Assembly: GCA_024274875.1 (NCBI GenBank)
Contig: JAJSAH010000005.1
Location: forward strand, 1 to 33,077
Length of the DNA stretch: 33,077 nucleotides
Direction: 5' to 3'
Origin: an archaeon
GTDB lineage: Archaea; Micrarchaeota; Micrarchaeia; CAILAH01
In this document: in pieces, positions 3,369-28,323 of the stretch
How positions within the stretch are numbered: the stretch's first letter is position 1
Layout of the letters: each line of letters begins with the position of its first letter
The notes under the pieces: model-generated
The model's input: the letters and a program-made list of their open reading frames with translations, nothing else
Databases searched by the model: none
Told to the model about the DNA's origin: nothing
Program-made: the position numbers and the translations under genes

Positions 3369-4289
3369 TTGAAGTGCTCTCGCTGTTCATCTGATGCTGT
3401 CATATATCTAACTTATTCGAATCAATACATGTGCGCATCGCATTTGAGCGCATATGTTGAAAAGCGCATAGGAAATAATATGCGGAATTATAAAATGATC
3501 AAAGGGAGAAGACGCATAGGTATAGCGGTTTCTGGAGGAAAAGACAGCCAAGTTATGATGCATGCAATGCGCAAACTGATTGGAAAAGATAGGAGGCGAG
3601 AGCTCATTGCAATAACAGTTGATGAGGGAATACGCGGGTACAGGGATAAGAGCATAGAATGCGTGGTGAAGTATGCTGAATTGCTTGGCATTGAGCATCA
3701 CATATTCTCATTTAACGATTTTGCTGTGCAAATGGATGCGTTGATGAATAAGGGGCGAACAGACCCTTGCTCGTATTGCGGCGTATTTCGCAGATGGATT
3801 TTAAATAAGGCATCGCGCGAACTATCGCTTGACGCGCTTGCGATAGGGCATAATTTAGATGATGTTGTTCAAACGCTCCAGTTAAACATAATGCGAAATG
3901 AGCCGTTGCGCATAGCGCGTTTCACACCAAACGGCGGCGTGTTTAATGACCGCATGTTTGTGCCTCGCATAAGACCCATGTTCAACATTCCTGAGAAAGA
4001 AATAATCGTGTATGCTCTTATAAAATCCATACCTTTTCATAACGGAGAGTGCCCATACGCAGGGCATGCTCTGCGCAACCCCGTGAGAGAATTCATTAAT
4101 GATATGGAGTCAAAATATCCTGGAATAAAGTTTAGAATGCTAAACTCATACCTGTCTCTTCTCAATCATCTTAATTTTCCTGCGCTGCGCGATAATTCAA
4201 TTTTGCGATGTTCATCATGCGGTGAGCCATCATCTTCAAAAATCTGCAAGCGTTGTTCTTTTCTTAATTCCGCAATCTCTCATTCATAA
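3369..4289 (+). CDS. TtuA/Ncs6-family tRNA 2-thiolation adenylase
   Basis: PP-loop SGGKDS, N- and C-terminal zinc-ribbon cysteines (CSRCSS..., CSSCGEPSSSKICKRC), PCSYCGVFRR and GHNLDDVVQT motifs; TTG start abutting the upstream stop. Confidence 0.88.
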   Translation: MKCSRCSSDAVIYLTYSNQYMCASHLSAYVEKRIGNNMRNYKMIKGRRRIGIAVSGGKDSQVMMHAMRKLIGKDRRRELIAITVDEGIRGYRDKSIECVVKYAELLGIEHHIFSFNDFAVQMDALMNKGRTDPCSYCGVFRRWILNKASRELSLDALAIGHNLDDVVQTLQLNIMRNEPLRIARFTPNGGVFNDRMFVPRIRPMFNIPEKEIIVYALIKSIPFHNGECPYAGHALRNPVREFINDMESKYPGIKFRMLNSYLSLLNHLNFPALRDNSILRCSSCGEPSSSKICKRCSFLNSAISHS

Positions 4290-5651
4290 TAATAGATCCC
4301 TTTCTCCATTCCGCACTCTTTCAAGTTTTTTTAGAAAAGCGCGTTTAACTTTCAAATCAAGAGTATCAACAAGCTCTTTGATGTATTCTTCTCCCATTTC
4401 TCTAACCGCATCGCCTGCGTAATCGCTTAAATATTCTTGAAAAGTAAGCAATGCATTAGGAAGGCAGAATTCATGTATGTCTCCTGGTTTTGCCAAGCTC
4501 ATGAACGTTTCACCAGTTCTCCCAACTCTGTAGCATGCAGTGCAGAAGCTTGGGATCATCCCGAGAAGCATCATAGATTTTATCGTATCATCAAGGGAAC
4601 ATCGGTCAGATATGCTGAATTGCTCGAGAATATGCCTATTGCTGTATCCGCCCGGTGATGTGCGCGATGCAGCTGAGGTCTGAGACACGCCTATTCCAAA
4701 AGCTCTCAATCTCGTTTCATGGCTTTCTCGCGTGGACATGATTATGCCGGTATACGGCAAAGCTAACCTGATTATTGCAATTATTTTTAGGAGCTCGCGT
4801 TCAGAAATGCTGTAAGGCGCGCGCCTCCATTTAACGCTCTCAGCAGGTTTCCAGCGCGGCACAGAGATCGTGTGCGGCCCTACATTGAAATTGCGTTCTA
4901 ACTCATTTGCATGCATTAAAAGCGCAAGAACCTCATACCTGTAATCATACAACCCATAAAGCACTCCTAATCCTACATCATCTATGCCTGCGCTAAACGC
5001 TTCGTGGTGCGCAAACAACTGTCTTCTGTAGTTTGATTTTGGACCTGAGTGCAATATATTATATGTTGGTTCATGATATGTCTCTTGGAATAATTGATAT
5101 GTGCCTATGCCGGCTTGATTGAGCAATGCATAATCATTTTTATCTGTCGCGGCAATATTTACGTTAACTCTGCGGACTTCCCCCTTTTCTGTCTTAGTGC
5201 AATATATTGCGTTAATCACATCAATAACGTAGCCTATTGGGTTTTCTATTGGGTGTTCGCCAAACTCAATGAGCACGCGTTTGTGCCCCATCTCAATAAT
5301 TTTTTTTGTTTCTTCCTTTACTTCATCAATAGTCAGTTTTTTGCGTTTTACTTTGTTTTTCGACCTAAATCCGCAGTAAGTGCAGTTATTTATGCAATGA
5401 TTGGATGCATACAATGGAGCGAACAACACAAGCCTATTACCATAAATCTCATTTTTCACCTGCCTTGCTGAATCGAATAATTCATTCATCAACCCTCTAT
5501 CACTTATGTTAAGCAACACTCCTACCTCTTCAAGTTCGAGGCCGCTTTTTTCCATCGCTCTCTCAAACACCTTCTTTGCATCTGTTTTAGTAGCTCTTTT
5601 AGTCCTGCGCAATATCCTGCGAATTTTTTTATCATCGATGAAATATGGCAT
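4284..5651 (-). CDS. hydG: [FeFe]-hydrogenase maturase HydG (radical SAM tyrosine lyase)
   Basis: CINNCTYCGFR (CX3CX2C), IGTYQLFQETYHEPTY, GIDDVGLGVLYGLYDYRYEVLALLMHA, and a C-terminal CTACYRVGRTGETFMSLAKPGDIHEFC matching the CX2CX22C auxiliary-cluster motif that separates HydG from ThiH. Confidence 0.93.
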   Translation of the reverse strand: MPYFIDDKKIRRILRRTKRATKTDAKKVFERAMEKSGLELEEVGVLLNISDRGLMNELFDSARQVKNEIYGNRLVLFAPLYASNHCINNCTYCGFRSKNKVKRKKLTIDEVKEETKKIIEMGHKRVLIEFGEHPIENPIGYVIDVINAIYCTKTEKGEVRRVNVNIAATDKNDYALLNQAGIGTYQLFQETYHEPTYNILHSGPKSNYRRQLFAHHEAFSAGIDDVGLGVLYGLYDYRYEVLALLMHANELERNFNVGPHTISVPRWKPAESVKWRRAPYSISERELLKIIAIIRLALPYTGIIMSTRESHETRLRAFGIGVSQTSAASRTSPGGYSNRHILEQFSISDRCSLDDTIKSMMLLGMIPSFCTACYRVGRTGETFMSLAKPGDIHEFCLPNALLTFQEYLSDYAGDAVREMGEEYIKELVDTLDLKVKRAFLKKLERVRNGERDLLL

Positions 5652-5659
5652 AAAGACAC

Positions 5660-6904
5660 CTATATTGATATGTCCGTTGGCGCTCGGCCGATGGACTTGA
5701 TCACTTCTATTTTAGAATTGATTGACTTAATAAGGTTTACATCGCGCGGGTATATGTCATAGTTGCCAGCAAACTCGTCCGGAGTTGCATTGATCATGAA
5801 TGAGTTTGCGCCGCACATCATCCCTTTCCTTAACCCATCTTTGTCGATCGTTTCCAGAGCAGTTGTAACTAATATGTTTGCGTCAGGATGCGCAATTCTG
5901 GCGGTTGCGATGGTTCTGTACCATAAATCTGCATTCTGCTGTTTTGAGTTGCGCAGCGGAGTTTCAGCGTGCGGTATGAATGGGCCGATTGAGTACATAT
6001 CAGCATCAAGGTTTCGCGTCATAATAATATCATTTGCAATATCCTCAATCGTTTGGCCGGGAAGCCCGACCATAAATCCTGTTGCGCATATATAACCAAG
6101 TTTTTTTGCATATTTAATCATATGCAGGCGTTCTTTGAGGCTTCCTTTCGAGCCGGCAGGGTGCATTGAGTTGTACAAGTCCTCATTAGAAGTTTCGAAC
6201 CTTAACAGCACGCCCCTTGCTCCGGCATCATAAGCTTTTTTATAGAATGATTCAGTGCGCGTGCCGCAGCTTATGAAAATCAACGCGTTGAATCTTTTGG
6301 CTATTTCCTCAACAATCTCGCTGAACATTTCATCTGTGTAATGCTCGTCTTCGCCGGATTGGAGGACGATGGCCTTAAACCCAAGTTTTTTAATGGCATA
6401 CTCTACATTCCTGAACAGTTGGGTTTTTGACATTCTGCACCGCACCAATTTACGATTGCTTTTCCTGATTCCGCAATATTTGCAGTCGTTTATGCAATAG
6501 TTTGAGAATTCTATTATTCCGTGAACGCAGCATGAGTTTTGCTTGCGCGCGCTTCTGAGAGCATTAGCCATTGCAAATATTCTATCATCATTAGATTTGA
6601 GCATTTGAATAAGGTCTTCCTTGTTCAGCGAACGGTCCAATAATTCCTCAAGCGCAGCAGGGGGTTTGGACAACTCGGAATCTATCCGTTTCAATTCCAT
6701 AAACTTATTTTTCCATGAGCTTAGCAATCGCTCGGCTTCAATCCTGTCGATTTGCTCAACAATTAAACCACCCTGCGCATACACATAATCTCCTTCACTT
6801 AACTCAAAGAATTCATTCACTGCATTTCGCGTTTCACTAAAATACTCCAAAATTACATTTCTCCCGCGGATGCCGACAACCTTGCCGGGAATGGCATAGC
6901 ACAT
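5660..6904 (-). CDS. hydE: HypC/HupF-like domain fused to HydE-like radical SAM protein
   Basis: N-terminus MCYAIPGKVVGIRGRNVILEYF...EGDYVYAQGGLIVEQIDRIEAERLL is HypC-like. It is followed by IIEFSNYCINDCKYCGIRKSN, IVLQSGEDEHYTDEM, TGFMVGLPGQTIEDIANDI, YSIGPFIPHAETPL, MCGANSFMINATP, all of the HydE type. 8 nt upstream of hydG. Confidence 0.9.
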   Translation of the reverse strand: MCYAIPGKVVGIRGRNVILEYFSETRNAVNEFFELSEGDYVYAQGGLIVEQIDRIEAERLLSSWKNKFMELKRIDSELSKPPAALEELLDRSLNKEDLIQMLKSNDDRIFAMANALRSARKQNSCCVHGIIEFSNYCINDCKYCGIRKSNRKLVRCRMSKTQLFRNVEYAIKKLGFKAIVLQSGEDEHYTDEMFSEIVEEIAKRFNALIFISCGTRTESFYKKAYDAGARGVLLRFETSNEDLYNSMHPAGSKGSLKERLHMIKYAKKLGYICATGFMVGLPGQTIEDIANDIIMTRNLDADMYSIGPFIPHAETPLRNSKQQNADLWYRTIATARIAHPDANILVTTALETIDKDGLRKGMMCGANSFMINATPDEFAGNYDIYPRDVNLIKSINSKIEVIKSIGRAPTDISI

Positions 6905-13543: not shown

Positions 13544-14956
13544 TTAAAACCCAAAATTAATTATGTTTATTCCTTTTATGCCGGTTTTCTCAACCAACCT
13601 GTTCAATGATTCTTTGTTCCTGTGCGTGAATTTCATTTGACTACGGACTTTGCTTGGATCAAGATAACCCCATCGTTTAAGCGCTGCTTTTAATTCCTTA
13701 TGCGTTTTTGCGTATTTTGGCAGAGGTATGCCTTTGCTGATTGCTTCCGCTGCTTGAAGCATAGATTTTGCGCCTGCGCGAGTGCCTCCAGGATGACCGT
13801 GAACACCGCCGCCAGCTTGCATAATCACATCTCTACCATGCACAGCAGCAACCCCATCGCATAAGCCCGCATTCAGACCGCCCGATGCTACGGGAAACAC
13901 GGTCTTTATCTTCTTATTCCATTCGTAATCAAGCTTTCCCATATAATACATGCCCTTAATTTTTTGCTCATAGATGATATCGCGCAAAAATCTTACATGA
14001 ACTGGAGAACCTTCCATCTTGCCAACTCCAGTTCCAACATGCAATTCATCAACTCCAAACAACCTATAGAATTTCTCAAATATGCCGAATGAAATTCCAT
14101 AATTGCCTCTTTCAAGAGCGCCGTATCCTGCCCTATGCGCGTGTATGAACATTTTCCTTCTCTTTAATTCATCTATGACATCCTGCAACGCGCCGAATCC
14201 TATTATGTAAACATCGATCATTGCCATTACCCAGCCGTGATCGTGCAAGTAATCTATCCTGTCCATCATATCGCATAATCTTGCGGTGATATTTGGAGAG
14301 TACAGAACCTTTCTTCCAGTGCGCTTCTCAACTCTATCTATGATTTTAAGCATTTCATTTACTCTCTGTTTAAACCTGCAGAATTTTTGGTCGACAAGGT
14401 TCTCATCGTCTTTCACGAAATCTATGCCTCCCATATATGATTCATACGCAACCTTTGCAAACTGCTTTGGGTTCAGCCCAACTTTTGGTTTTACTATTGT
14501 CCCAACATGAGGTCTTCGAGATTTAAGCGTACCAACATACTTTCTTAAACCCTCCATGCCGTGCAAAGGACCTTCAAATTTTGATTGAAACCTGCGCGGA
14601 AAAGTTATATCTAAAATTCGCATCTCATACAGCTCTTTAAGACCGAACAGATTTCCAAATACTGATGCGCTTAATTGAAGGACATTCTCAATTTCAAAAT
14701 GTTCAAGGGGATATGCAATGTATATGAACCCTGCGTTTTCCGCAATCTTATCAATCCTGAACACACGCGCGCGCAATTTCCAGACTTCCTTGTTCAAAGT
14801 TTTAAGCTTGGTCCAAGTGCCTATGCTTGATTCAGCCGCAATTGCTTCAGCAATCTTTTCAATCCTTTCCCTGCCACGCGCCCAAATGAGCATAATAATA
14901 TCATTTCTTGCGGGAGAATATTTTTCATCTAGGTATGAATAACCTCCGTACGCCAT
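13544..14956 (-). CDS. rbcL: RuBisCO large-chain, form III-like
   Basis: ESSIGTWTKL, GTIVKPKVGL, GGIDFVKDDEN (carbamylation-Lys motif), GVGKMEG (loop 6 Lys), SGGLNAGL, GGGVHGHPGGTRAGAKS. Track start 15028; ATG at 14956 (MAYGGYSYLDEKYSPARNDIIML) is more consistent. Confidence 0.93.
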   Translation of the reverse strand: MAYGGYSYLDEKYSPARNDIIMLIWARGRERIEKIAEAIAAESSIGTWTKLKTLNKEVWKLRARVFRIDKIAENAGFIYIAYPLEHFEIENVLQLSASVFGNLFGLKELYEMRILDITFPRRFQSKFEGPLHGMEGLRKYVGTLKSRRPHVGTIVKPKVGLNPKQFAKVAYESYMGGIDFVKDDENLVDQKFCRFKQRVNEMLKIIDRVEKRTGRKVLYSPNITARLCDMMDRIDYLHDHGWVMAMIDVYIIGFGALQDVIDELKRRKMFIHAHRAGYGALERGNYGISFGIFEKFYRLFGVDELHVGTGVGKMEGSPVHVRFLRDIIYEQKIKGMYYMGKLDYEWNKKIKTVFPVASGGLNAGLCDGVAAVHGRDVIMQAGGGVHGHPGGTRAGAKSMLQAAEAISKGIPLPKYAKTHKELKAALKRWGYLDPSKVRSQMKFTHRNKESLNRLVEKTGIKGINIINFGF

Positions 14957-14994
14957 AAAATGCACCAAGCATAAGTCCGCAACAAGATTTATAT

Positions 14995-15135
14995 TTATAT
15001 GTTCCTTCCTCTCATGCATCTCACGCAAATTCCATCAACTTGATCGTTCACGCATGTTGGCAAACCGCATATTTTGCAGGTTATGCAAGGTTTGCATACC
15101 TTGCCGCACACATGGCATATGCCGGCTTTTTCCAT
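14995..15135 (-). CDS. Small Cys-rich zinc-binding protein
   Basis: MEKAGICHVCGKVCKPCITCKICGLPTCVNDQVDGICVRCMRGRNI (46 aa, multiple CX2C); lies between the AAA-wHTH and RuBisCO genes on the same strand. Confidence 0.6.
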   Translation of the reverse strand: MEKAGICHVCGKVCKPCITCKICGLPTCVNDQVDGICVRCMRGRNI

Positions 15136-24125: not shown

Positions 24126-25823
24126 TCAACCAATCCTTTTGAATTTTCTTTCTAGATCTCCCCAACTCATCCGCACCACGGTCGGCCTGCCATGAGGACA
24201 TGTATATGGATTTCTGCATAATTTAAGGTTTTCTATAATTGATTTCATTTCAGCATGCGATAGAATATCTCCGCCTTTGACGGCGGCTCTGCATGCCTTA
24301 GTGGCAACAACTGAATCCATTCTATCTATATCATGTTTTCCATACGTTTTTATCTCATCGATAATATCTATGATCACTTTCGGGTTAGATGCTTTACCGA
24401 ACACTGCAGGCACAGATACTACTGCATACTCAAACTTGCCAAACCTTTCAATGTCGAACCCATACCTTTCCAGCAAGTTAGCGTGTTTTGAAATAAGTTC
24501 ATCTTGCTCAGCGCTAACAGCGATTATGAAGGGCTTGATCAGTTCGTTCTTAGATACAGCATTTTTTGATAACTGATCCATAAATTTTTCATATAGAATT
24601 CTCTCTTGCGCTGCGTGTTGATCAATCAAAACAATCCCTGAATTATCATATCCTACTAGATAAGTCTTGTTTACTTGCCCCAACAGCAATATGTTGTTGA
24701 ATTTCGAGGTCTCATGCCCAGCATTTATCTTCTTGCAGACAGGTTTGACAGTAATATCGCTAAAATCCAACTGCACTCCTTTTTCAATGGGATATGCATG
24801 CGCGCTTTTTGCAAGTTTTGCGTCAGCATCCACGGACACAAAATTGTCTTTGGTTATAATGCTATCTCTTATTGCATTTATTATGCATTCCTTAACAGAA
24901 TGCTCATTTCTGAACAATATCTCTTCTTTAGATGGATGCACATTCACATCAATCATTTTGGGATCAATATTTATGTAGAGCACGAACACAGGATTGCGCT
25001 CCAAAAACAATTTATCAGCATATCCTTCTTCAACGGACTTGCTAACCAAGTTATTCTTCACGAGCCTGCCATTAACGAACAGTACTTGATAATCCCTGGT
25101 TTTGCGCGTGTATCCTGGTTTTGATATAAAGCCCAAGATTGCTACGCCCCCTGCTGAATGTTTAGTTTCAACGACATTGCGCGCAATCTCTTTTCCGAAC
25201 GCGTGGTATATCTTATTAACTAGGGTTGTTTTTGGTGAGTTAAACGCAAGATTTCCGTCTTTGTAGAGCATAAAATGTATGTTTTGGCTAGCTAGAGAAT
25301 ACCTTGTAATAAGCGCAAGTATGCTCTGAAATTCTGCATCATCAGATTTCATGAATTTCAAACGTGCTGGAAGTTTGCTTAACAGATTGCGTATCTCAAC
25401 AACAGTGCCTCTGTTAATATCGCTTTTGCTTATTTGAATAGGGTTTCCCTGAGAATCAAACACTGCTTTATATCCATTTGATTGAACAATCAGATCGCTA
25501 ACTGCTGAGATGCTGGCGAGCGCCTCTCCCCTGAACCCTAAAGTATTGATGCGCAGTAGGTCATCTTCAACCTTAAGTTTGCTTGTTGTATGCCGCTTCG
25601 CGCATAATTCAAGATCATCTTTGCTCATTCCTCTGCCGTTGTCCGCAACGCGTATAAGAAGTTTGCCGCCCTTATCAATATGCACTTTTATTTCTTCAGC
25701 ACCCGCATCGATGCTATTCTCTATTAGTTCTTTAACCACTGATTTAGGAGATGTGATAACTTCTCCGGCAGCGATTTTGTCGCGCACTTTTTCAGGAATA
25801 GCGATTATACTCATTTCACGCAC
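24126..25823 (-). CDS. mutL: DNA mismatch repair protein MutL (endonuclease-type)
   Basis: KIAAGEVITSPKSVVKELIENSIDAGA, DNGRGM, GFRGEALASI; C-terminal DQHAAQERILYE matches DQHA(X)2E(X)4E; CPHGRPT. ATG at 25814 is an alternative start. Confidence 0.96.
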   Translation of the reverse strand: MREMSIIAIPEKVRDKIAAGEVITSPKSVVKELIENSIDAGAEEIKVHIDKGGKLLIRVADNGRGMSKDDLELCAKRHTTSKLKVEDDLLRINTLGFRGEALASISAVSDLIVQSNGYKAVFDSQGNPIQISKSDINRGTVVEIRNLLSKLPARLKFMKSDDAEFQSILALITRYSLASQNIHFMLYKDGNLAFNSPKTTLVNKIYHAFGKEIARNVVETKHSAGGVAILGFISKPGYTRKTRDYQVLFVNGRLVKNNLVSKSVEEGYADKLFLERNPVFVLYINIDPKMIDVNVHPSKEEILFRNEHSVKECIINAIRDSIITKDNFVSVDADAKLAKSAHAYPIEKGVQLDFSDITVKPVCKKINAGHETSKFNNILLLGQVNKTYLVGYDNSGIVLIDQHAAQERILYEKFMDQLSKNAVSKNELIKPFIIAVSAEQDELISKHANLLERYGFDIERFGKFEYAVVSVPAVFGKASNPKVIIDIIDEIKTYGKHDIDRMDSVVATKACRAAVKGGDILSHAEMKSIIENLKLCRNPYTCPHGRPTVVRMSWGDLERKFKRIG

Positions 25824-25824
25824 C

Positions 25825-28323
25825 TCACACAGACCAAATATTAATACTGGTCTGTTTATCTTCCTCTATGCTTTTACCGCCTTTTGTTAATCTGCTCAGA
25901 GTTTCCCTATGCAAGAAGTCGTTTTGTTCAAGCATTTTTGAAATTTTGCTGGCGTTTTGCACAACTTTGTTAGGCAGTCCAGCAATTTTTGCGACATGAA
26001 CTCCATAACTTTTGTCAGTGCCGCCTTCGCACAGTTTATGCATAAACACAACTCCATTCTCCTCTTCTTTCACTGCAACATTGTAATTCTTAACAAAACC
26101 ATATTTAAGTGCAATCAGGTTGAGCAGATGGTAATGCGTAGCAAACAGAGTTTTGCACTTAATGTTTTCCGCGATGTATTCTACTATCGCCCACGCTATT
26201 GCCATACCATCATAGGTAGAGGTTCCCCTGCCGATTTCATCCAAGATTACTAAAGAGTTCTCTGTTGCATTATTGAGTATGTTGGCGGTTTCGGTCATTT
26301 CCATCATGAATGTTGATTGCCCGCGCCAAATATCATCTCTTGCACCAACCCTTGTAAATATGCGGTCGAACACTGCAAGGTTTGCTGATTTGGCAGGCAC
26401 ATAACATCCCATCTGTGCCATTATGCATATGAGCGCAACCTGTCTCATAATTGTTGATTTGCCAGCCATATTTGGACCTGTTATTATGGCTATTCTGTTA
26501 TTGCAGTCCATGCGAACATCATTAGGGATAAAATTAACCACAGCGCTCTCAACCACAGGATGTCTTCCCTCCTTTATATCAAGCACTCCGTCGTTGTTCA
26601 GTGATGGCCTGCAATAACCGCAATTGTGCGCAAGTTCTGCAAAACACATGTAAACATCAAGCTCAGCAATTTTATCTGAAATGCTGTGCAATTTATCAAC
26701 ATGTTCTTTTGCACGCTTAACCACCTGCGCATATATCTCTGATTCGAGCTGCCTGATCTTTTCTTCTGAATTAAGCAACGTTACCTCTATCTCCTTAAGC
26801 TCTGGAGAAATATACCTTTCCGTTGCAACCTGCGTTTGTTTGCGCACATATGCCTTCGGTACCATTCCTGCCTTGGATTTTGGGACTTCTATGAAATACC
26901 CTATAATTTTATTATATCTCACTTTAAGAGTTCTTATGCCGGTTTTTTCTCTTTCCTTCTGTTCAAATTCAGTCAACCATTTTTTTGAATTGTCAACCAA
27001 TTCTTTGATCCTGTCAAGCTCCTCACTGTATCCTTGCTTTATGACACCGCCGTCTCTAACAACCGATTTAGCATTTTCATCTATGCTCTCGCGTATTAAA
27101 TTCTCAATCTGTTCAGCGGTGTCCATAATTGAAAAATCATTGTAGAATGCGGTTTTAAGGCTTAAATCGCTAATGATTTTTTTAAGTTTCCTGCAATTCT
27201 CCAATGACTGCTTTAACATGAGCAGTTCTCTCGGTAGCACGGTTTCATAGGATATGCGCGCAGATATACGCTGCACATCACCAATATGTTTAAGCACATT
27301 CTTAATCTCCTCAATTGCCATTGGATTACTAGTGACCTCCCCAACATTATCGAGCCGTTCATTAATCTGTTTAACATCTGCAAGCGGTGACAGCATAAAT
27401 TTTTTGATTAGCCTGTTTCCCATAGGCGTGACAACTCCTTTGAATACGCTCAACAAAGTGCCTCTTTCAGAACCGTCAACCTGGTTTCTCACCAAATCAA
27501 GATTTCTTATGGTAATTGCATCAATCAGCATATTGTTGGATGCAGCATAGTATGATATCTTGCCTGCGCCCAGTGCAATTTTCCCGAGCAAAGTGTAATC
27601 GAGGTATGATAGCATTCCGGAGATTGCTTTGCGCGATAATTCATGCTCATCCAAACCATATGATGAAAACGACCTAACGCCAAACATTTTGTTCAATAAG
27701 TATGAGCCGTTTTCTTCATCGAATTTGTATGATTCAACTTCACTTATTTTAAACCCAAACTGCTTGCTGAGTTTTCCAACCCATTCATACCCAGGCAGAT
27801 TTCCTTTAGGAACGATGATTTCAGACGGTTTATATTTTTCAATTTCTGTTTCGATGCTATTCTCATCTGTTTCGGTAGTATGCATCTCCCCAGTTGAAAC
27901 ATCGCATGCGCACAACCCTATGCCGCGATTATCAGAATAAAAGCTCATTATGTAATTGTTTGATTTCTCATCTATCATATGCGGTTCGATCACCGTGCCT
28001 GGAGTGACTATTCTCACAACGCCTCTTTTAACCAATCCCTTTGCCTTTTTTGGATCCTCCAACTGTTCTACGATAACAACTTTATGCCCTTTATCAACGA
28101 GTTTTTTTAGGTATGTATCGAGCGCATGGTATGGTATGCCTGCAAGCGGGGCTTTTTTATCGCCTTTGCCTCTGTTTGTCAGCACAATATTAAGATCATT
28201 CGCGACGGTTTTCGCATCATCATAAAATGTCTCGTAGAAATCTCCCATTCTGAACAATACGATGCAGTCATCATACTTGCGTTTTACATCCCAATACTGC
28301 CTCATGGCTGGAGTAAGCTCCAT
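25825..28323 (-). CDS. mutS: DNA mismatch repair protein MutS
   Basis: FRMGDFYETFYDDA mismatch-recognition motif; Walker A GPNMAGKSTIMRQVAL; DEIGRGTSTYDGMAIAWA; FATHYH. Confidence 0.97.
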   Translation of the reverse strand: MELTPAMRQYWDVKRKYDDCIVLFRMGDFYETFYDDAKTVANDLNIVLTNRGKGDKKAPLAGIPYHALDTYLKKLVDKGHKVVIVEQLEDPKKAKGLVKRGVVRIVTPGTVIEPHMIDEKSNNYIMSFYSDNRGIGLCACDVSTGEMHTTETDENSIETEIEKYKPSEIIVPKGNLPGYEWVGKLSKQFGFKISEVESYKFDEENGSYLLNKMFGVRSFSSYGLDEHELSRKAISGMLSYLDYTLLGKIALGAGKISYYAASNNMLIDAITIRNLDLVRNQVDGSERGTLLSVFKGVVTPMGNRLIKKFMLSPLADVKQINERLDNVGEVTSNPMAIEEIKNVLKHIGDVQRISARISYETVLPRELLMLKQSLENCRKLKKIISDLSLKTAFYNDFSIMDTAEQIENLIRESIDENAKSVVRDGGVIKQGYSEELDRIKELVDNSKKWLTEFEQKEREKTGIRTLKVRYNKIIGYFIEVPKSKAGMVPKAYVRKQTQVATERYISPELKEIEVTLLNSEEKIRQLESEIYAQVVKRAKEHVDKLHSISDKIAELDVYMCFAELAHNCGYCRPSLNNDGVLDIKEGRHPVVESAVVNFIPNDVRMDCNNRIAIITGPNMAGKSTIMRQVALICIMAQMGCYVPAKSANLAVFDRIFTRVGARDDIWRGQSTFMMEMTETANILNNATENSLVILDEIGRGTSTYDGMAIAWAIVEYIAENIKCKTLFATHYHLLNLIALKYGFVKNYNVAVKEEENGVVFMHKLCEGGTDKSYGVHVAKIAGLPNKVVQNASKISKMLEQNDFLHRETLSRLTKGGKSIEEDKQTSINIWSV

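Follow-up and report, generated by a model that had tools for sequence, protein, structure and literature searches.

Which hydrogenase is served by a protein that joins HypC, the Fe carrier of [NiFe]-hydrogenase assembly, to HydE, a radical SAM enzyme of [FeFe]-hydrogenase H-cluster assembly? The question is raised by a single gene within a stretch of 33,077 nucleotides (contig JAJSAH010000005.1, hereafter the window) from an archaeon of the class Micrarchaeia. The features of the locus are collected in Table 1. Elsewhere in the window, a minus-strand ORF at 13544-15028 resembles by eye the RuBisCO large subunit (GGIDFVKDDE motif), and neighbouring minus-strand ORFs at 24126-28323 resemble, also by eye, MutL and MutS.

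Table 1. Features of the fusion locus, in window positions
Feature	Position	Strand	Evidence
HypC-HydE fusion gene, 414 aa	5660..6904	-	ORF; Pfam and NCBIfam matches; full length in 11 class genomes
HypC (HupF) domain, residues 1-63	6716..6904	-	PF01455 above cut-off; PDB HypC matches
Cys2 of HypC domain	6899..6901	-	invariant, 53/53 fusions
Gln44, where canonical HypC has a conserved His	6773..6775	-	53/53 fusions; alignment to 2z1c
HydE radical SAM domain, residues 91-389	5738..6634	-	TIGR03956 match; T. maritima HydE
CX3CX2C radical SAM [4Fe-4S] motif (C137, C141, C144)	6473..6496	-	sequence; alignments
CCVH (C125, C126, V127, H128), directly before the radical SAM motif	6521..6532	-	fusion alignment
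HydG, tyrosine lyase, 8 bp downstream of the fusion	4284..5651	-	TIGR03955; PDB 4wcx, E 2e-156

Architecture of the fusion protein

The gene lies on the minus strand, which was not stated in the preliminary description of the locus, and reads from 6904 to 5660 as an ATG-started ORF free of stops and frameshifts. The N-terminal HypC domain is followed in the same frame by the HydE radical SAM domain. Pfam placed HupF_HypC at residues 1-63, Radical_SAM at 131-291, and BATS at 309-373. An AlphaFold2 model computed from a 53-row alignment reached a mean pLDDT of 91.8 and a pTM of 0.91, and its top PDB match in Foldseek was T. maritima HydE (3cix, E 8e-30). The architecture originally proposed, a HypC domain and a HydE-like radical SAM protein in one frame, is thus confirmed by the ORF, Pfam, NCBIfam, PDB, and AlphaFold2 results. 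An assembly join or frameshift near position 6680, which had been raised as a possible break, was considered and rejected: relatives in 11 class genomes align in a single open frame from residue 1 to residues 387-413, and the best 80 of 191 related loci from a genome-wide scan match the fusion from residue 1 to residues 412-414. Because full-length copies recur in the 11 class genomes and the scan yielded 191 related loci, the fusion is genuine and not an assembly artefact.

The N-terminal domain matched PF01455 (HupF_HypC) with 35.9 bits against a curated cut-off of 28.5 (E 8.5e-9), and a PDB search with residues 1-66 retrieved HypC of the T. kodakarensis type (2z1c/3vyr); the fusion scored below the cut-off of NCBIfam TIGR00074. 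Cys2, which in HypC is known to bind Fe, is present in 53/53 fusions. At the position where canonical HypC has a conserved His (T. kodakarensis His44, E. coli H51), the 53 fusions all carry Gln. In HypC/HybG, this His aids HypD binding (PMC9002611).

HydE was by a wide margin the top NCBIfam model for the window copy, with 249.9 bits for TIGR03956, slightly short of its cut-off of 254.6, as opposed to 132 for PylB and 85 for BioB. Relatives of the same architecture fall on both sides of the cut-off (286.3 bits for the copy at L023, 218.1 for that at L083). Residues 84-409 found T. maritima HydE in the PDB with an E value of 2e-64. The CX3CX2C motif is kept in 53/53 fusions. In the CCVH stretch, C125, C126, and H128 are invariant among the fusions, whereas T. 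maritima HydE reads V-H-I-R at this site and the HydA-type HydEs carry Arg at the place of H128. In the tree, the fusion HydEs and the unfused HydEs of [NiFe] genomes form one clade (97/89) apart from the HydA-type HydEs, whose own group is weakly supported (87/55).

The next gene had been read as HydG, and this identification held, with 520 bits for TIGR03955 against a cut-off of 312 in addition to the PDB match. The window HydG has both the radical SAM motif and the C-terminal CX2C...C motif of the auxiliary cluster, a pattern that is kept in 55 of 59 HydGs examined. At four loci (L242, L249, L258, L264), the HydG adjoining the fusion has CTAGYRC instead of CTACYR, which changes the auxiliary-cluster CX2C; judging from this residue change, these HydGs may yield a different product.

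Hydrogenase and maturation genes in the class

The survey of the class covered 98 relatives first and then 301 genomes. The fusion was found in 11 of the 301 (G000, G023, G038, G049, G117-G120, G122, G129, G139), while G110 and G112 have a HydE that has no HypC domain and adjoins HydG, and G095, G131, and G153 have a plain HydE together with HydF, HydG, and HydA. G138, with a HydG fragment and no match to HydE, was left aside. HydE and HydG thus occur without HydA in 13 genomes, 11 fused and two unfused, and all 13 have a [NiFe] large subunit, which is present in 69/301 genomes across the class and in none of the three HydA genomes. Neither HydA nor true HydF was found in the host genome of the window or in the other fusion genomes of the class. 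Weak, partial GTPase matches to HydF appear in every genome; strong full-length ones are limited to G131, G153, and G095.

HypD occurs in five class genomes and full-length HypF in four of those five (short single-domain HypF matches, seen in many genomes, were excluded from the counts); none of the five has HydG, and neither gene was found in any of the 13 [NiFe] genomes with HydE and HydG. In the host genome, tblastn with E. coli HypD and HypE gave no match and with E. coli HypF two short partial matches, and the same queries recover HypC, HypD, HypE, and HypF at class loci where these genes are present. Neither HypA nor HypB was found in the host genome. Its [NiFe] large subunit, small subunit, and protease lie on another contig, C14, where a profile search showed no separate HypC; in G139, the fusion lies about 3 kb from the large subunit. 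Among 66 large subunits examined by pattern search, the second CxxC motif is present in all and the first in all but one; the fusion genomes of the class each have a large subunit with both of these Ni-binding motifs.

In a further 52 class genomes, a [NiFe] large subunit is present but HydG and HypD are both missing, implying another route, import, or an inactive enzyme there, and the correlation is not exclusive. A DUF6390 protein recurs beside the [NiFe] genes, chiefly where HydG and HypD are both missing from the genome. Such proteins, most with an EamA-type transporter, lie near the large subunit at L185, L186, L187, L188, L190, L191, L192, L194, L196, and L199, and one lies beside [NiFe] genes of G122 (L084:6807-8641). 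In five of the sampled genomes with neither HydG nor HypD, a HypC-like gene is found close to the large subunit. In G009, the gene (L091:13898-14596) encodes a HypC protein of 233 aa whose second part resembles DUF6390; the others are in G013, G018, G082, and G229.

Two peculiarities of the small subunits were also seen. That of G117 (L098:6229-8292) reads as 688 aa and diverges from its relatives immediately after GGC (GGCIPGDTMMIF... as opposed to GGCNGCTLE in G118), which suggests a possible intein. The small subunits of the soluble [NiFe] enzymes of the class (L084:8504-9031, L093:8549-9070, and L082:10348-10818) reach only about 160-176 aa, with CCEDS at the expected CxxC of the proximal cluster.

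Fusion loci in other archaea and bacteria

Species-representative genomes scanned with the fusion alignment yielded the 191 related loci; the same kind of scan with a single protein yielded none. More than a dozen phyla of archaea and bacteria are represented among the best 80 of the 191, led by Omnitrophota (32), Planctomycetota (8), and Elusimicrobiota (5) and including Margulisiibacteriota, Saganbacteria, Lentisphaerota, Chlamydiota, Patescibacteria, DPANN archaea, and others. These 80 loci were picked by fusion motifs rather than by neighbours, and 76 of them have a clean fusion ORF, with flanks of at most 10 kb per side and often shorter. HydG lies within 700 bp of the fusion in 52 of the 76. 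The flanks contain a [NiFe] large subunit at 33 loci and any [NiFe] structural or protease gene at 39; about half of the loci have no [NiFe] gene in the available flank, many flanks being short. As a rough background, the host genome of the window has one [NiFe] large-subunit locus per approximately 830 kb. HydA is near the fusion at three loci, and HypD, HypE, and HypF are at none within the flanks, the stretch covered in bacterial hosts.

In bacteria, the fusion is often located within a [NiFe] operon. L253 and L271 read small subunit, large subunit, HycI, HypA, fusion, and HydG, and at L213 a cluster of the membrane-bound type is followed by HycI, HydG, and the fusion. At L276, on an Omnitrophota contig, the fusion lies within a [NiFe] operon, and several kilobases away are HydA, a separate HydG, and the first part of a plain HydE (LRGIIEFSN motif).

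Proposed role in [NiFe]-hydrogenase maturation

We consider it likely that HydG and the HypC-HydE fusion constitute a [NiFe]-hydrogenase maturation system in place of HypD, HypE, and HypF. This reading draws on the large subunit in all 13 HydA-less class genomes with HydE and HydG, far above its share in the class, and from the missing HypD and full-length HypF in the same genomes. It is further based on the motif-picked loci, which often show [NiFe] genes and never HypD, HypE, or HypF in their flanks, on the operons at L253, L271, and L213, and on L276, where the HydA, HydG, and plain HydE set is kept separate. The distinct HydE clade, a HypC domain that keeps Cys2 but not the His supporting HypD, the CxxC motifs retained in the large subunits, and the proximity of the fusion to the large subunit in G139 point the same way. 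Against it count the 52 genomes with neither route, the loci with no flanking [NiFe] gene, the missing HypA and HypB in the host genome, the restriction of the HypDEF result in bacterial hosts to the flanks, and the ratio of CO to CN discussed below.

HydG is established to make an Fe(CN)(CO)2-cysteine synthon, which HydE receives from it directly (PMC12752695), and HypC delivers Fe(CN)2CO to the large subunit in its apo form (PMC9002611). The architecture, its conservation, the neighbourhoods, the co-occurrence and absence of genes, and the residue changes are observed; all of the chemical steps, the hand-over through HypC, and the ligand set are what we infer from them. HydG would cleave tyrosine to form an Fe(CO)x(CN)y-cysteine unit, which the HydE domain would take over, releasing or remodelling the Fe-diatomic fragment by radical SAM chemistry. 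The fused HypC domain would capture this fragment via Cys2 and hand it to the apo large subunit, as HypC does elsewhere, and HypA (where present) and a HycI-type protease would complete the site. The fusion would in this way unite the hand-over from HydG to HydE and that from HypC to the large subunit in one protein. The known HydG product has two CO and one CN, whereas known [NiFe] sites have one CO and two CN, so that the ligands would have to be rearranged, HydG would have to make another product, or the [NiFe] site would have to carry unusual ligands.

Alternatively, HydG and the fusion could be an ancillary supply that gives CO, or Fe-CO, to a HypCD-type scaffold in the manner of HypX, with cyanide made by HypEF or unknown proteins. 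CO as a ligand is already known to be made in two ways (HypX, PMC6802093), and the HypDEF result for the bacterial loci concerns the flanks only. However, the class survey found no HypD or full-length HypF in the 13 genomes, and the HypC domain is here joined to HydE and no longer has the His involved in HypD binding, which makes this arrangement unlikely.

The preliminary description had the fusion serve an [FeFe] hydrogenase, HypC being the dock through which the HydG synthon reaches HydE. HydE and HydG are indeed known only from H-cluster assembly (PMC12752695), and the three loci with HydA nearby are in keeping with such a client. The idea of a dock or carrier that receives an Fe-CO-CN unit which HydG makes and HydE acts on fits the data. 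The H-cluster as the client is probably wrong, because in the class the genomes with the fusion carry a [NiFe] large subunit but not HydA or true HydF, because bacterial fusions are often found in [NiFe] operons, and because HydA at L276 has its own HydG and plain HydE. The class genomes with HydA likewise use plain HydE, and taken as a whole this earlier reading is very unlikely. That the fusion makes a different Fe-CO-CN cofactor for an unrecognised client, its link to [NiFe] enzymes being indirect, would agree with the loci that have no [NiFe] gene in their often short flanks and with the lack of the fusion in most [NiFe] genomes of the class, but is very unlikely given the large subunit in 13/13 class genomes with HydE and HydG and no HydA, and given that in several phyla the fusion is tightly placed in operons between HypA/HycI and HydG.

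Returning to a maturation system in place of HypDEF, a wider version can be offered tentatively. HydG and HypC-HydE might build [NiFe] sites without HypDEF in many phyla, possibly with non-standard ligands such as Fe(CO)2(CN), and the [NiFe] genomes of the class that have neither route might use a third one, involving the HypC-like, DUF6390, and EamA genes. If the proposed role is correct, tyrosine-derived CO and CN would serve both classes of hydrogenase, the [NiFe] and [FeFe] maturation pathways would be linked in evolution, and HydE/HydG would be a misleading marker of [FeFe] hydrogenase in these groups. A short route to [NiFe] enzymes could then be attempted in vitro or in E. coli.

Comparison with known maturation systems

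In the titles and abstract openings of open-licence papers, we found no HypC-HydE fusion and no HydG in [NiFe] maturation, and an earlier report is possible. This agrees with the preliminary description, to which no such fusion was known, yet the fusion is not rare. All component families of the system are already known. With the HypC/HybG/HupF chaperones (PF01455; 2z1c, 3vyr), the fusion has in common the beta-barrel, the start Met-Cys, and the MCYAIPG motif; it differs in being joined to HydE, in the change of His to Gln, and in the lack of a HypD partner in the class genomes. With HydE (TIGR03956; T. maritima, PDB 3ciw, 5few, 7o1t), its best family and fold match, it shares the radical SAM barrel and CX3CX2C, whereas the N-terminal HypC, CCVH for V-H-I-R, a clade of its own, and class genomes that have no HydA or HydF set it apart.

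As a system, it shares the HypC domain, HypA (in several operons), and a HycI-type protease by the large subunit with canonical HypABCDEF plus protease, but the 13 class genomes have HydG and HydE instead of HypD and full-length HypF, and no HypD, HypE, or HypF is found in the flanks of the loci. Adjacent HydG and HydE are common to it and to the HydEFG machinery of the H-cluster, whereas the fusion genomes of the class have neither HydF nor HydA and their HydE is fused to HypC. HypX provides [NiFe] enzymes with a diatomic ligand from an alternative source (PMC6802093), as the system proposed here would do, but it employs formyl-THF/CoA chemistry rather than radical SAM chemistry and works with HypCD.
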